64,000 nt of DNA from Hymenobacter sp. BT730 (lineage in GTDB: Bacteria > Bacteroidota > Bacteroidia > Cytophagales > Hymenobacteraceae): contig NZ_JAUOFB010000001.1 of the NCBI RefSeq assembly GCF_030542105.1, forward strand, positions 1,364,001-1,428,000, in the 5' to 3' direction. Within the stretch, counting starts at the first letter, position 1. Each line of letters opens with the position of its first letter. Below the pieces are notes generated by a model that searched no databases, was not told the origin of the DNA, and saw only the letters and a program-made list of their open reading frames with translations. Made by a program: the position numbers and the translations under genes. This document shows positions 22,876 to 29,361 of this stretch, piece by piece.

Positions 22876-23625
22876 TTACCGCAAATTGCCCAGATCCAGG
22901 GTTTCGCCGGCTTGCAGCACCTGTAGAGTCACGCCATCCTCCGGCTGAAGGAAGGAATGCAGCTGCTCCGGCGTACCCACCAGGGAGGGGAAGGTGCCGT
23001 AATGAAAGGGTACCACCTGTGGTACCCGGAGCAGGCGGGCGGCATAAGCGGCTTCCCGCGGCCCCATGGTGTACCGGTCGCCGATGGGGAGCAGGGCTAC
23101 GGTGGGTTGGTAGAGGTCCGCAAGCAGGCGCATGTCGCCGAACAGGGCGGTGTCGCCAGCGGCGTAGAGCACGGTGTTATCGGAGAAGCGCAGAATGTAG
23201 CCCACGGCCTCGTGCGGGACGGCAGTGGAGCCATCCGGCAGGTCGATGTGGGCGGGGTGGACGGCGGCCGTCATGGTCAGGCGCAGGCCTTCCGGGAGGT
23301 CAACACTGCCGCCTATGTTCATGGGCTCACACTGCGGCGCGGGCACGCCTTGCTCCTGCAGGTAAAACCTAACTGGCGCGGGCGCCGCTACCCGGGCGCC
23401 GGTGCGGATAAGCAAGTCCGGGAGGTCGAAGTCGAAATGGTCGCCGTGGCCGTGCGTGACGAGCACCAGATCCACCTGCTCCGGCTGCCACGCATAAGTA
23501 GGCGTGAATTGCAGGTTGGTGTACCAGGGGTCAATGAGAATAACCCGGCCCTCGGGCGTAGTAATCCGAAAGCTGGCGTGACCCAGAAATTGCAGTTGTG
23601 TAGTGGCAGGCATGGAAATGGGCAT
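22876..23625 (-). CDS. UlaG-like metal-dependent hydrolase (UPF0173 type)
   Basis: A 249-residue metallo-beta-lactamase-fold enzyme of the UPF0173/UlaG branch. The metal motif is VLVTHGHGDHFD (HxHxDH, about residues 58-63), with the further histidines in AAVHPAH and VVPFHYGTFP and the aspartate in YAAGDTALFG. The N-terminal LQFLGHASFRI is typical of the branch. Two in-frame ATGs are available (23625 and 23613); the second gives MPATTQLQ and fits the family start equally well. The substrate is unknown; relatives are described as lactonases or phosphodiesterases. It follows the hypothetical gene at 23669 by 43 bases and may be co-transcribed with it. Confidence 0.9.
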   Translation of the reverse strand: MPISMPATTQLQFLGHASFRITTPEGRVILIDPWYTNLQFTPTYAWQPEQVDLVLVTHGHGDHFDFDLPDLLIRTGARVAAPAPVRFYLQEQGVPAPQCEPMNIGGSVDLPEGLRLTMTAAVHPAHIDLPDGSTAVPHEAVGYILRFSDNTVLYAAGDTALFGDMRLLADLYQPTVALLPIGDRYTMGPREAAYAARLLRVPQVVPFHYGTFPSLVGTPEQLHSFLQPEDGVTLQVLQAGETLDLGNLR

Positions 23626-23668: not shown

Positions 23669-24112
23669 TTATAAGATGGTGGAAATATCCAGCGAGGTTT
23701 GCTGCGCCACAGAAACCGGCAGCTTGGTTCGGCTCAGCAGCGTGGCTATGTGCTTGGGCAGCTCCGCCACGGTAAGCGGCCGAACGGGCCGGGCAACCAC
23801 GTAATACCGCGCATCGGCCCGGTCGTGGAGCTGGGCCTTGGCGAAGGAAAACAGGCCCCGGTGTGCATAGCGGGCAAAACCCTGAAAGTGCGCATCCTGC
23901 TCCGCACCCGCTTCCAGCGGCACCGCCTCAGCCGATTCTGCTTCCGCTAGCGTCAGGAAATACTGATGCAGCTCCAGCAGCACTTCCTGGGAAGCGGCTA
24001 CTGATTCAGGCAGGACACCGCCGCCGGAGGCTACGTGCAGGATATAACCGTTGCTATCCGTAGCAAACCAGTCGATGTCAGCGTCTTCCTGGTCTATGTC
24101 GTCTATGCGCAT
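23669..24112 (-). CDS. Hypothetical protein
   Basis: A 147-residue acidic protein that I cannot name. It opens with an aspartate-rich stretch (MRIDDIDQEDADIDWFA) leading to DSNGYILHVASGGGVLPESV, then a helix (LLELHQYFLTLAEAE), an aromatic region (FARYAHRGLFSFAKAQLHD) and a terminal YYVVARPVRPLTVAELPKHI. No signal or membrane segment. Base composition matches the surrounding genome, unlike the AT-rich gene just upstream. The WFA-GYILH-SGGG pattern is reminiscent of small proteins paired with toxins, but no toxin-like partner is evident, so I do not assign that role. Confidence 0.7.
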   Translation of the reverse strand: MRIDDIDQEDADIDWFATDSNGYILHVASGGGVLPESVAASQEVLLELHQYFLTLAEAESAEAVPLEAGAEQDAHFQGFARYAHRGLFSFAKAQLHDRADARYYVVARPVRPLTVAELPKHIATLLSRTKLPVSVAQQTSLDISTIL

Positions 24113-24195
24113 ATAGTAGGATGGTAAAACAAATGCTTGATAAAGTGATGGGACTCGTTAATCAATAAATTTGGTTTGTTGGATATAGTCTAGAG

Positions 24196-25212
24196 TTACC
24201 ATATAATCTCTACTTGAGGATAGAACTTCTTTAAAATTATTTCATGAAGTTCCATTACGCCATAGATGTAGTCATTATCTTTATTATAAGTTTTTAACAC
24301 TTCTTTTATTACTTCAGTAGTAGCATTAAGGACTTCTCCTACTGGCGGGTCTGTCACGCCTTGATCAATAAAATTCTGCTTAACAATAGGTAATTGTAGA
24401 ATATATTCACTTTTAATAATTGCAGATCCAATTCTTACGCTTTCATTATCTGTTATCCTTTGTTTAGTGGTTACTTGCATTATTCCAATTGTCTTTGTAA
24501 AGAATGGGAATAAGGCTCTTTCTGCTATTCTAAATAAAGGAGGTCTGTTAAAGTTTTCATACATAATAGTAGCATATATTAATGATTCTAGTATTGGAGT
24601 AGGGTGAAGTTGATTAATTATATGTCCATATTTGTATTTAAATAAACGATAATATTTATTATAGTATTTTTCTCTTCTTATTTCTGATCCTGACGTTCCT
24701 ACATCGATTTTGTTAAAAGTATTGTATATATACAATATAATAATTATCCATAGCTCTCCAGTTAAATTTGCTGGATCTGGTAAAAGATTAGCGCGCACTA
24801 TGATAAATTTTTTATAAATTGCAAAGGTCCCTAAAGTTGATATTATTGATAAGATTATTTCTCTGCGTTTGTCTATTAATTGCCACTTATGTAGCAGTAG
24901 ATTGTATATAATTCTAAATGCAAAATATAGAGGAACAATAATCCAAATATTATGTACAAGATAATCAAAGGATAAAAAATAGTATAGACTAGAAATTACA
25001 ATAGTAAATATAATAGGTGATAATATTCTGAATGTGATGTTATATGCAGGTGATTCGTCTCTTTGGGTGAAGAGATTCATACTTATATAGCCAAATGACA
25101 ATGATAATTTGCCTATCCAATTAACAATTAAGAAAATTATTATTGGTAAAATTAAGAACTGTATATAGTATGTAAACTGAGTAATATTTAGTGTCTGTAA
25201 CTTTTCAAACAT
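24196..25212 (-). CDS. AT-rich membrane protein with possible lysozyme-like C-terminal domain, probably horizontally acquired
   Basis: A 338-residue protein with hydrophobic segments at about residues 15-38, 60-82, 86-107, 118-138 and 153-166, then a soluble C-terminal region. That region contains PILESLIYATIMYENFNRP followed by KTIGIMQVTTKQ (about 241-250). A glutamate in a helix followed by G-I/L-M-Q is the pattern of SLT/lysozyme-fold transglycosylases, so a peptidoglycan-acting or degenerate lysozyme-like domain is possible; this is inference, and the spacing (about 24 residues) is longer than usual. The gene is strikingly AT-rich: I counted 12 G or C in 60 at both 24361-24420 and 24601-24660, against GC-rich neighbours, with AT-ending codons. 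It is a lone insertion between core metabolic genes, as expected for a recently acquired accessory or defence gene. Confidence 0.78.
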   Translation of the reverse strand: MFEKLQTLNITQFTYYIQFLILPIIIFLIVNWIGKLSLSFGYISMNLFTQRDESPAYNITFRILSPIIFTIVISSLYYFLSFDYLVHNIWIIVPLYFAFRIIYNLLLHKWQLIDKRREIILSIISTLGTFAIYKKFIIVRANLLPDPANLTGELWIIIILYIYNTFNKIDVGTSGSEIRREKYYNKYYRLFKYKYGHIINQLHPTPILESLIYATIMYENFNRPPLFRIAERALFPFFTKTIGIMQVTTKQRITDNESVRIGSAIIKSEYILQLPIVKQNFIDQGVTDPPVGEVLNATTEVIKEVLKTYNKDNDYIYGVMELHEIILKKFYPQVEIIW

Positions 25213-25250
25213 ATAAAGGGGGTATGTAAGTAACTCTTTGTTTTACAAAT

Positions 25251-25299
25251 AGACAGAAGAATATGGTGTTGGATGATCAACACCAATATTCTTCTGTCT
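25251..25299 (-). terminator. Long hairpin at the end of mutB
   Basis: Arms of 21 and 22 bases (25251-25271 and 25278-25299) pair with one bulged base over a six-base loop. The outer arm overlaps the mutB stop codon. There is no strong T-run, so termination is likely but not certain. It also marks the border between the GC-rich mutase gene and the AT-rich gene. Confidence 0.7.
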
Positions 25300-27418
25300 A
25301 CTCACTAAGCTTCTCCAAAATCTCCTGCGCGGCCACGGCAATAACTGTCCCCGGACCATACACACCAGCCACGCCGGCATCATACAGGAACTGGTAATCC
25401 TGAGCTGGAATCACGCCGCCGGCAATAACGAGGATGTCTTCGCGGCCCAGCTTCTTTAGCTCCTCAATGAGCTGGGGAATGAGGGTTTTGTGGCCGGCGG
25501 CAAGGCTGCTCACGCCCACGATGTGCACGTCATTCTCAACGGCCTGGCGGGCTACTTCCTCAGGCGTCTGGAACAGGGGCGCAATGTCCACGTCGAAGCC
25601 CACATCGGCGAAGGAGGTGGCAATGATTTTGGAGCCCCGGTCGTGGCCGTCCTGGCCCATTTTGGCCACCATCATGCGGGGGCGGCGGCCTTCGTTGCGG
25701 GCAAAGGCGTCGGCCGCGTCGCGGGCCTTGGCAAATTCCTGGTCGTAGTCCATTTCGGCAGAATACACGCCCGATATAGCGCGAATGGTGGCCTGGTGGC
25801 GGCCGTATACTTTCTCCAGCGCATCGGAAATCTCGCCCAGCGTGGCCCGGAAGCGGGCGGCGTGCACAGCTAGCTCCAGCAGGTTGCCCTGGCCGGTGCG
25901 GGCTGCTTCCGTCAGCACGTCCAGCGCAGCCTGCACTGAGGCATTGTCACGCTGGGCCTTAATGCGGTTCAGGCGCTCAATCTGCGACTCGCGCACGGCG
26001 GCGTTATCAATGTCCAGCACCTCAATGGGGTGTTCCTCGCTGGGGCGGTACTTGTTCACGCCCACAATAATCTCCTTGTGCGAGTCGATGCGGGCCTGCT
26101 TGCGGGCGGCTGCTTCCTCAATGCGCATTTTGGGCAGGCCGGTTTCAATGGCTTTGGCCATGCCGCCCAGCTCTTCCACTTCCTGCATCAGGGCCCAGGC
26201 TTTGTCGGCCAGCTCTTTGGTGAGGCTTTCCACGTAGTAGGAACCGCCCCAGGGGTCTACCACTTTGGTAATGTCCGTTTCGTGCTGGAGGTAAAGCTGC
26301 GTGTTGCGGGCAATGCGGGCCGAGAAGTCGGTGGGCAGGGCAATGGCCTCGTCCAGAGCATTGGTGTGCAGGCTTTGGGTGCCGCCCAGGGCCGCGGCCA
26401 GCGCCTCCACGCAGGTGCGCGCCACGTTATTGAAGGGGTCCTGCTCGGTAAGGGAGTAGCCTGAGGTCTGGCAGTGGGTGCGCAGGGCCAGGCTTTTGGG
26501 GTTGGTGGGGTTGAACTGCCTGATGAGCTTGGCCCATAGCAAACGCCCGGCGCGCAGCTTAGCAATTTCCATGAAGTGGTTCATGCCAATGGCCCAGAAG
26601 AACGACAGGCGCGGTGCAAACTGATCAATGGTCATGCCCGCGGCCAAACCGGCCCGCACGTATTCCAGGCCATCGGCCAGAGTATAGGCCAGCTCAATAT
26701 CGGCGGTAGCGCCGGCCTCCTGCATGTGGTAGCCCGAGATGCTGATGCTGTTGAAGCGCGGCATGTTCTGGGCCGTGTAGGCAAAGATATCGGCAATGAT
26801 GCGCATGCTGGGCGCAGGCGGATAGATGTAGGTGTTCCGCACCATAAACTCCTTCAGAATATCGTTCTGAATAGTGCCCGACAGCTTTTCCGGGGTAACG
26901 CCCTGTTCCTCAGCGGCCACAATGTAAAACGCCATAATCGGCAGCACCGCCCCGTTCATGGTCATCGACACGGACATCTGATCCAGCGGAATCTGGTCGA
27001 AGAGCAGCTTCATATCCTCCACCGAATCGATAGCCACGCCGGCCTTGCCCACGTCACCTACCACGCGGGGGTGGTCGGAGTCGTAGCCGCGGTGCGTAGC
27101 CAGGTCAAACGCTACTGATAAACCCTTCTGCCCGCCCGCCAGGTTGCGGCGGTAGAAAGCGTTGCTTTCCTCGGCCGTGCTGAAGCCTGCATATTGCCGG
27201 ATAGTCCAGGGGCTCTGCACATACATGCTGGCGTAGGGTCCGCGCAAATACGGCGCCTGGCCCGCGCCAAAGCCCAGGTGGCTGATGCCCGCCAAGTCAT
27301 CGGCCGTGTAAAAGCTATGCAGACTGATGCCCTCCGGCGTGCTGGTTTCCGTGGCCTCCGCGGGAATAGTAGGCAGGGGCGCGGCGTTGTAGGGTATCTG
27401 GGCGAAGTTGGGTTTCAT
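25298..27418 (-). CDS. mutB: Methylmalonyl-CoA mutase, large (catalytic) subunit
   Basis: Interconverts (R)-methylmalonyl-CoA and succinyl-CoA with adenosylcobalamin. The 706-residue chain has the TIM-barrel acyl-CoA domain ([20 protein letters not shown], then [20 protein letters not shown], both family signatures) and a C-terminal B12-binding domain with [13 protein letters not shown], where the histidine of DxHxxG (about residue 592) replaces the lower cobalt ligand, followed by [15 protein letters not shown] and [11 protein letters not shown]. Length is normal for the large subunit. The small subunit lies upstream on the same strand, separated by 161 bases that hold a palindromic repeat. 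MeaB and a corrinoid adenosyltransferase elsewhere in the window complete the cofactor support. Confidence 0.97.
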
Positions 27419-27579: not shown

Positions 27580-29361
27580 CTAGCGGCCTTGCAGGCGCGC
27601 CAGTACGTCTTCGGTGCTGTAGCCCTGCACTGTGAATTCCTGGAAGCCGTAGAGGCGCACGCCTTCCTGCAGTGTAGCCAGGTCGCCGGTAAGCAGGGTA
27701 GGCGGTACAAAGGTGTCGTCGGAGGGCTCTACGCGGTAGACCACCCGCGCCAGCTCCCGGAATTGGGTGGGCGTGGCGTACATCAGCGTCACTTCCTCGG
27801 GTGAGGAAAACAGCACGGAGAGGGTACCGGCCGGGTGGGCAGCATCTATTTCCGGGCGCTCCTGGTGCGGCAGCGTGCGCAGGAAGGATTCCAGAATCAG
27901 TTGGTTGGTGCCGGGGCCCAGCAGCACCACCGCGGCGCGCTTGTTTTTCTTCTCGCGGCGCTCAAAGTGCAGCGCCGTAGCCAGCCGTAGTACCTCGGTG
28001 GGGTAGGTGGCGCGGGTGCTGTCGAAGTTTTTGCTGCGCAGGAGCTTTTTGGGGTTGAAGTCGAACTTCTCCTGTGGGTTCTGGAAGCGGTTGGTGCCCA
28101 CCACCACCTGCTCGCCGGTAGCAATGCGGTGGAACTGGGCCTGGGCCGCGCCGTGCAGTTCCAGCGCCACCATGCTGGCCGCAGCGGGCAGGCCGCCCTG
28201 TGCCTCTACTTTCTGAAACAGGCTCCAGCCTTCACTGGCCAGCTTGTCGGTCAGCGTTTCCAGGTAGTAGGAGCCAGCGGCGGGGTCAGCTACGCGGCCC
28301 AAAAAAGCCTCTTCGCGGAGCAGAATAGGCAGGTTGCGCGCGAGCCGCTCCGAAAACTCGTTGGGCTCATGAAATATACTGTCGAAGGGTGTTACGCTTA
28401 CGGCATCGGCCCCGCCCAGCACGGCCGCCATGGTTTCCGTCGTAACGCGCAGCAGATTGGTATGCGCGTCCAGCGTAGTCTGGCTCCAGGTGGCGGTGGT
28501 AGCAAATATGGGCAGGGCCTCGGCTATCTGCATGGGCACGCTATACGCGTGCAGCAGTGTAGCCCACAAGCGGCGCAGGGCGCGCAGCTTAGCTATTTCA
28601 GGGAAGTAGGATGGATTAAGGCCCACCTGTACCTGCATAGCCGCGGCCACATCCGCCACCGACAGCAGGGCCGAAGGCAGCTCACTTAAATACGCGGCGG
28701 CAGCCGCAAGGAGAAAGCCCAACTGTTGGGTAATGTTGCCACCACGATTGGCAAAGTACGCACCGTTGAGAGCCAGAGCATGAAATCCGGGGTGGGGCTG
28801 CGTAAGGGCAATGGCTTTGCGCAGAGAAATCAGCTGCAGGCTTAAGTCGGGTGCGTGGTTGGTAATTGGGTCACAGCTCAGAAAACCCTGCAGGGTAGGG
28901 GTGCCCGTAGCCAGCAGGCGCTGCACCAGCTCAGAAGGGTTCTGGTGCACCGTGTAGCCTACATAAGTAGCGTGCAGGGGCAGATGCTGATGCAGGTATT
29001 CCACATCAAAACTGGGCGCATCTGCCAGCGCAAAATGTGCGCCCGTAGCGCCCAGCGTAATGGCGGCGGCGGCCCTGTCAATGGCAGTATGGCCGTTTTC
29101 TTTCGCGGGGACCTGGTAGGTAGGCACGTTGCGCCAGCCTTCGGGAGAGGTATGCAGAAGGGGTGAGGGTGGACCACCCAGTACTTCCAGCGCCTCGCGG
29201 TGGTAGAAAGGCTCAATAGTTAGCCCATCCGGCGTGTGCCATTGCAGTGAAGTGAGGTCGGCTCCTTTCAGGTCGCGGCTCAGGCGCTGCTGCCACTGCG
29301 CAGTGGTTACGGGTTCAAACTCGGAGAAAGAAACGGGCACAGGACGCGGAGAATCAGCCAT
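27580..29361 (-). CDS. mutA: Methylmalonyl-CoA mutase, small subunit
   Basis: The 593-residue non-catalytic partner of MutB in heterodimeric mutases. It keeps the barrel architecture (EFEPVTTAQWQQRLSRDL, DGLTIEPFYHREALE, VADPAAGSYYLETLTDKLA, then FQNPQEKFDF) but its C-terminal cobalamin-like domain lacks the DxHxxG motif, as expected for the small subunit. The stretch GGADAVSVTPFDS matches the equivalent [13 protein letters not shown] of the large subunit. It starts the mutA-mutB transcription unit. The upstream 336-base gap is divergent to the nucleotidase genes. Confidence 0.93.
   Translation of the reverse strand: MADSPRPVPVSFSEFEPVTTAQWQQRLSRDLKGADLTSLQWHTPDGLTIEPFYHREALEVLGGPPSPLLHTSPEGWRNVPTYQVPAKENGHTAIDRAAAAITLGATGAHFALADAPSFDVEYLHQHLPLHATYVGYTVHQNPSELVQRLLATGTPTLQGFLSCDPITNHAPDLSLQLISLRKAIALTQPHPGFHALALNGAYFANRGGNITQQLGFLLAAAAAYLSELPSALLSVADVAAAMQVQVGLNPSYFPEIAKLRALRRLWATLLHAYSVPMQIAEALPIFATTATWSQTTLDAHTNLLRVTTETMAAVLGGADAVSVTPFDSIFHEPNEFSERLARNLPILLREEAFLGRVADPAAGSYYLETLTDKLASEGWSLFQKVEAQGGLPAAASMVALELHGAAQAQFHRIATGEQVVVGTNRFQNPQEKFDFNPKKLLRSKNFDSTRATYPTEVLRLATALHFERREKKNKRAAVVLLGPGTNQLILESFLRTLPHQERPEIDAAHPAGTLSVLFSSPEEVTLMYATPTQFRELARVVYRVEPSDDTFVPPTLLTGDLATLQEGVRLYGFQEFTVQGYSTEDVLARLQGR

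Follow-up and report, generated by a model that had tools for sequence, protein, structure and literature searches.

A membrane protein gene with a predicted goose-type lysozyme fold, probably acquired as single-gene cargo at a variable junction in Hymenobacter, as a candidate anti-phage effector

The goose-type lysozyme and lytic transglycosylase fold is treated here under the GH23 label, together with the motifs by which it is recognised. Among abortive infection and related systems, PrrC belongs to the ecoprrI locus and becomes active upon inhibition of the restriction enzyme, according to the excerpted text of PMC12707154. Premature lysis is given as an abortive infection outcome for AbiZ and Abi-alpha, and AbiZ is proposed to work via the phage holin (excerpted text of PMC6356687). 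No lysozyme-fold anti-phage effector is named in the titles and abstract openings listed by searches of open-licence PMC papers. The gene described below lies in a stretch of 64,000 nucleotides from Hymenobacter sp. BT730 (contig NZ_JAUOFB010000001.1, positions 1,364,001 to 1,428,000), which is referred to as the window.

The 338-aa gene (Table 1) is the sole gene between mutB (25298-27418) and a gene for a 147-aa hypothetical protein (23669-24112), as an earlier note made from the sequence alone had described. From reading of the translations, the neighbours are presumably mutB with a mutA-like partner (27580-29361) on one side and the 147-aa hypothetical gene with an MBL-fold-like gene (22876-23625) on the other; all four share one strand with the 338-aa gene. 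Taken over 500 bases at a time, GC is 0.27-0.29 inside the gene versus approximately 0.59-0.67 in the coding flanks on either side, and the earlier description of a gene far more AT-rich than its surroundings therefore holds. The segment at the mutB end (25225-25300) folds at -33 kcal/mol, z -8.3. Strong folding at the same place is also seen in some other mutB junctions. The mutB-end hairpin was rejected as the end of a mobile element, the genome having no second exact copy and one further site with 3 mismatches.

Table 1. Features of the lysozyme-fold membrane gene and its junction (positions in the window).
Feature	Position	Strand	Basis
Lysozyme-fold membrane gene	24196..25212	(-)	Single ORF, 338 aa, ATG start
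Membrane segments, residues 15-169: TM1 15-34, TM2 62-80, TM3 88-106, TM4 118-137, weaker TM5 153-169	24706..25170	(-)	Hydropathy, charge, model
Predicted goose-type lysozyme/GH23-like domain, residues 175-332	24217..24690	(-)	Predicted structure; replicated in second member
E219, candidate catalytic glutamate	24556..24558	(-)	17/17 invariant; on SLT glutamate in forced profile alignment
G243-V247, GIMQV motif	24472..24486	(-)	G, M, Q, V 17/17 invariant
Y309-N310, counterpart of SLT AYN motif	24283..24288	(-)	17/17 invariant; aligned with SLT YN
Variable junction (hotspot), mutB to 147-aa gene, with the 338-aa gene as cargo	24113..25297	.	Junction comparison
Hairpin at mutB end/stop, terminator-like, very stable	25251..25300	(-)	Folding and scan

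The C-terminal half has a goose-type lysozyme/lytic transglycosylase fold that, though predicted, is well supported. For the window protein, AlphaFold gives a model with mean pLDDT 77 and pTM 0.70. Foldseek places a goose-type lysozyme at the top (probability 0.99, E 0.24), and VIA, which ranks within Foldseek's own list, scores 3gxk at Z 10.0 (129 residues, 3.2 A), a value to be read, here and for the second model, with the tool notes, by which a Z below about 13 can be a common arrangement in helical models. Rows 1-14 of that ranking consist of lysozymes, lytic transglycosylases and a chitinase sharing the fold, followed by an autolysin domain in row 15, the fifteen spanning Z 6.8-10.0; the first unrelated entries come at Z 5.4. 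The replicate model, of an alphaproteobacterial member that is 30% identical (L017), has a pLDDT of 78 and a pTM of 0.62. For this model Foldseek lists a GPCR entry first and lysozyme 3wyh_A third (probability 0.85, E 1.7), and VIA is led by Tse3, a T6SS muramidase effector, and g-type lysozymes, tied at Z 9.8 (143 residues, 2.9 A). Rows 1-29 of its best 50 are lysozymes, transglycosylases, other wall-hydrolases and one T6SS effector-immunity complex, with the first unrelated entries at Z 6.4. The fold search thus returns lysozymes for both models, in line with the lysozyme-like motif proposed beforehand, and not a fold unrelated to lysozyme.

At the level of profiles, Pfam SLT has no match in the window protein and none above cut-off in the family, being found by 2/17 members with a best E of 0.04. 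A viral fold library gave zero confident matches, a phage lysin ranking second (probability 0.04) and a phage lytic transglycosylase third (0.06). Comparison with a profile of 29 SLT domains (L122 was left out of 30 loci as clipped) gave E 0.009-0.015, calculated for a single pair, versus 0.58-0.72 in the reversed control, with an hhalign probability of just 3-4%. In the forced alignment E219 coincides with the SLT glutamate and the two YN pairs with each other, with GIMQV out of register. With such a fold, the domain may cut peptidoglycan.

The YENFNRP...TIGIMQV pattern of a helix glutamate followed by a GLMQ-like motif, to which the earlier note had drawn attention, is by its conservation real and above chance. 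E219, R223, G243, M245, Q246, V247, S258, Y309 and N310 are all invariant in 17/17 aligned members. Further invariant positions include R228, E231 and Y315 in the C-terminal region and, within the membrane part, N31, G34, G41, Y42, N58, P66 and R100. In a 15-row set that includes the member on a viral contig, the E, G, M, Q, V and N are still invariant and Y309 is near-invariant. Glu, GLMQ-like and AYN-like motifs are all present, in lysozyme-superfamily order.

About five membrane helices had been proposed for the N-terminal part; four segments lie above the hydropathy cut-off, and the fifth falls below it yet is helical in the model. Across 17 members, mean K+R per segment is 0.06 for the N-terminus, 1.06 for loop1, 0.76 for loop2, 2.35 for loop3, 1.59 for loop4 (where mean D+E is 2.41) and 7.47 for the 31 residues after TM5. 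In the five-helix form both positive stretches, i.e. loop3 and the region after TM5, are on the same side, and by the positive-inside rule the positively charged side is the cytosol. With five helices assumed, this charge bias and the rule suggest that the lysozyme domain faces the cytosol, a position from which it could attack the wall directly only after a trigger or a change of topology. Since TM5 is below the hydropathy cut-off, an alternative with four helices and the lysozyme domain in the periplasm may apply instead.

Searches of Pfam, NCBIfam, PADLOC and PHROGs gave the 338-aa protein no usable match (0 PADLOC families at E up to 10), and a PDB sequence search with family member A2 gave no useful match. 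Relatives include one in another Bacteroidota genome (36% identical) and one on a conjugative plasmid of Rhizobium beringeri (29% identical), annotated as hypothetical. Single-sequence searches returned zero relatives in genome_contigs and viral_contigs, and by tblastn zero matches in 50,697 phage records and one among plasmids, where the Rhizobium member as query matched itself alone. Detection in genome_contigs needed a three-row profile (the window protein and two relatives), which gave 17 loci, 16 of them intact and one broken (L028), and detection in viral_contigs needed the 17-row profile, which gave one further member, located on contig L105 from the viral collection. With the window included, the intact members total 20, in Bacteroidota, in Alphaproteobacteria (one on the Rhizobium plasmid) and on one viral contig.

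Within the genus, a family match is present in 4/120 genomes and absent from 116/120. The window copy is intact; the other three have internal stops (G039), are interrupted (G522, by a transposase-like insert according to ORF reading by eye) or are a fragment at a contig edge (G497). A phylum sample gave matches in 2/395 genomes, one being the window's own. This distribution agrees with the acquired island of the earlier note, and not with the same gene at the same locus with matching composition in all relatives. GC of the gene is below both measured flanks in 18/18 intact loci listed; in L012, L015, L016 and L023 the gap on one or both sides is just 0.01-0.03. Purifying selection operates among relatives: dN/dS is 0.09-0.29 in five of eight pairs, those with dS 0.34-1.9, three of the five sharing members. 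The pair L018/L027 gives 0.50 at dS 0.02, L020/L024 are without synonymous change and L020/L023 are saturated.

The junction between mutB and the 147-aa gene is a cargo hotspot, often AT-rich and partly defence-like. mutB is present in 116/120 genomes of the genus (E up to 1e-200), and 56 junctions were examined. These comprise that of the window and, from the 115 other genomes, those next to the 55 best mutB matches (a set of 29, in which 14 were taken with longer flanks, and a set of 26). The 147-aa gene is downstream in order at 37/56 junctions, window included, and was not found in the sequence covered at 19/56, among which L050 and L088 are partly resolved otherwise. Three of 36 resolved congeners are empty at this junction, with intervals of 2, 30 and 34 bases (DNA alignment makes the first 17 bases, against 2 in the junction test), so that the empty site for which the earlier note had suggested a search does exist in relatives. 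More than 200 bases are found at 33 congeners and the window, with a median of 1.35 kb and 20/34 below 0.42 GC; the longer GC-rich inserts may be native genes. The two closest congeners by mutB (98%) carry different sequence. With the junction empty or differently filled in congeners, the likeliest history of the window gene is arrival on its own at a site of recurrent insertion.

Twenty chosen cargo proteins were compared with Pfam, where 8/20 had no match, and ten with PADLOC, where eight matched, including two of the eight without a Pfam match. The cargo includes a SIR2 gene with a CBASS-type cyclase (L063), AAA_15 ATPases (L065, L070, L088), an ATPase/partner pair matching PDC-M31A/B (L069), Fic (L075), SLFN_AlbA (L094), DUF4062 (L060) and DUF4145 (L056). 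That of L084, a secretion-signal protein, is plainly non-defence. The SIR2 gene and CBASS-type nucleotide cyclase form a two-gene cassette (L063:334-2060). An unnamed family of approximately 190-240 aa recurs at the hotspot in five genomes (L042, L049, L055, L086 and L092), the L092 member being without a Pfam match. The mutB junction offers a ready hotspot for finding further unknown defence genes in the genus.

The defence context of the family is strong. In L019, L020, L023 and L024 hsdM lies upstream, in type I restriction-modification (R-M) operons (split into two ORFs in L024), and hsdS lies downstream in the three of these whose contig continues; because L020 and L024 are near-identical, the hsdM-linked cases count as three distinct ones. 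Other genes of these operons are a YhcG-type nuclease (L019), Bro-N (L023) and a 207-aa ORF without a Pfam match (L020). HsdM_N has 92 matches in 61 genomes, approximately 0.45 per Mb with rounded genome sizes, and the chance of a random site falling within 3.5 kb of one is about 0.3%, a base rate that covers the HsdM count alone, the neighbours to scan having been picked by eye. Placement in an hsd operon is absent for the window gene and, as far as visible, for the other 15 intact loci.

Among these, L013 lies next to genes for a C5 methyltransferase, Vsr, an SDH-type protease and GmrSD_N. L015 has AbiEi/AbiEii approximately 2.8 kb upstream and RES and YhcG nuclease genes downstream, L016 has a Dsr1-like SIR2 gene and an mREase_IV/HNH-like gene, and L017 has a PDC-M36A-like gene 300 bases off. 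In L018 and L027 the gene overlaps the next by 4 bases, with Fic in L018 and, by eye, the same in L027; a RES gene is near L025, and L010 has an HNH gene with a weak restriction-type match. Homologues thus do lie in defence loci (type I R-M, AbiE, Dsr1-like, Fic and methyltransferase/Vsr), a point on which the earlier note had asked for a check. No recognisable defence neighbour is present in 6/20 intact loci (L004, L012, L014, L021, L022 and L026, the last a 4-kb contig). GC of the member on the viral contig L105 is 0.31, against about 0.5 for most of the genes around it, among which one gives a weak portal match (E 0.021). Three more AT-rich minus-strand genes of that contig (9047-9553, 13204-15678), between genes of about 0.5 GC, are candidate accessory cargo. 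Gene groups beyond the family itself that are common to at least three loci are four, i.e. hsdM, hsdS, alpha/beta-hydrolase and secreted-protein-like ORFs, the latter two named by eye. No conserved partner gene, sensor partner or immunity gene is found among the neighbours of family members, consistent with the remark that no sensor gene is seen beside the window gene.

Taken with some reserve, the gene is probably a horizontally acquired, stand-alone anti-phage effector, the anti-phage role being read from genomic context. What underlies this reading is computed: a membrane anchor, a predicted lysozyme fold, kept key residues, selection, mobility and defence company. At rest, the lysozyme domain would be tethered to the inner membrane, probably on its cytosolic face, and harmless. 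The trigger would be a phage event, either a breach of the membrane or, as for PrrC, inhibition of a neighbouring restriction system; by analogy, the position inside R-M operons suggests that some members act as guards in the way PrrC does. Once triggered, the domain could reach glycan, i.e. wall peptidoglycan or a lipid-linked precursor, and the cell would lyse or halt wall growth ahead of phage release, as in abortive infection. A more specific version is doubtful, namely that an active goose-type domain is caged in the cytosol by its tether and, upon a breach or the disabling of a guarded R-M system, flips or leaks, cuts glycan and brings about early lysis. If true, it would be a bacterial counterpart of phage holin-endolysin logic, present as single-gene cargo across phyla. 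If the broader anti-phage reading is right, cleavage of peptidoglycan-type glycan would join nucleases, NADases and pore formers as a route of self-sacrifice, by one gene that crosses phyla. Against the anti-phage effector reading stand the weak Foldseek E, VIA scores within the range of the tool's warning, the low hhalign probability, the cytosolic charge bias, the 6/20 loci without a defence neighbour, the lack of a conserved sensor partner and the zero single-sequence matches in phage records.

Conserved residues throughout the membrane part, and the member that is an AT-rich insert among genes of about 50% GC on a viral contig, would also fit superinfection exclusion, by which the membrane protein would keep phage DNA from entering and its lysozyme-like domain would interfere, where the DNA is injected, with the tail lysozyme or channel, with no killing of the cell. 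This is unlikely in that just 1/20 members comes from the viral collection and none matched the phage records, placement in R-M operons fits intracellular sensing better and the invariant catalytic-type residues suggest an enzyme. An enzyme without a defence role, accessory to remodelling of the cell wall or envelope glycans, would agree with the lysozyme/lytic transglycosylase fold and with the members that lie among metabolic genes; it is improbable for a gene so rarely found (4/120 genus genomes, one seen intact; 2/395 in the phylum sample, its own included), with GC below both flanks in measured loci and at a dispensable junction.

The charge-based cytosolic placement leaves no wall substrate, as would suit a catalytically dead lysozyme fold acting as a scaffold, a sensor or regulator of the membrane part, but the invariance of E219, Q246 and N310 across two phyla makes this highly improbable. 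The inter-bacterial competition factor that the earlier note had offered beside the abortive effector went unsupported. As an antibacterial or bacteriocin-like lysozyme it would be in keeping with Tse3 as the best match of the L017 model, tied with g-type lysozymes at Z 9.8; given several membrane helices, defence neighbourhoods and no conserved partner or immunity gene among the neighbours, it is scarcely credible.

Like the GH23/goose-type lysozymes (MltF, SLT35, Slt), the window family has the predicted fold in residues 175-332, with Glu, GxMQ and YN in order. Unlike them, it is fused behind four or five membrane helices, and the window protein has 24 residues from Glu to GIMQ, lies probably on the cytosolic side and is without a Pfam SLT match (E 0.04 at best in 2/17 members). 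Early lysis of infected cells, the outcome proposed here, is shared with AbiZ and Abi-alpha, whose descriptions in the excerpted text of PMC6356687 mention no lysozyme domain, unlike the window family; the comparison is by description and by the absent PADLOC match. The likeness to PrrC lies in the members found inside hsdM...hsdS operons. PrrC is an anticodon nuclease, whereas the family consists of membrane proteins with a predicted lysozyme fold, found also outside R-M loci.
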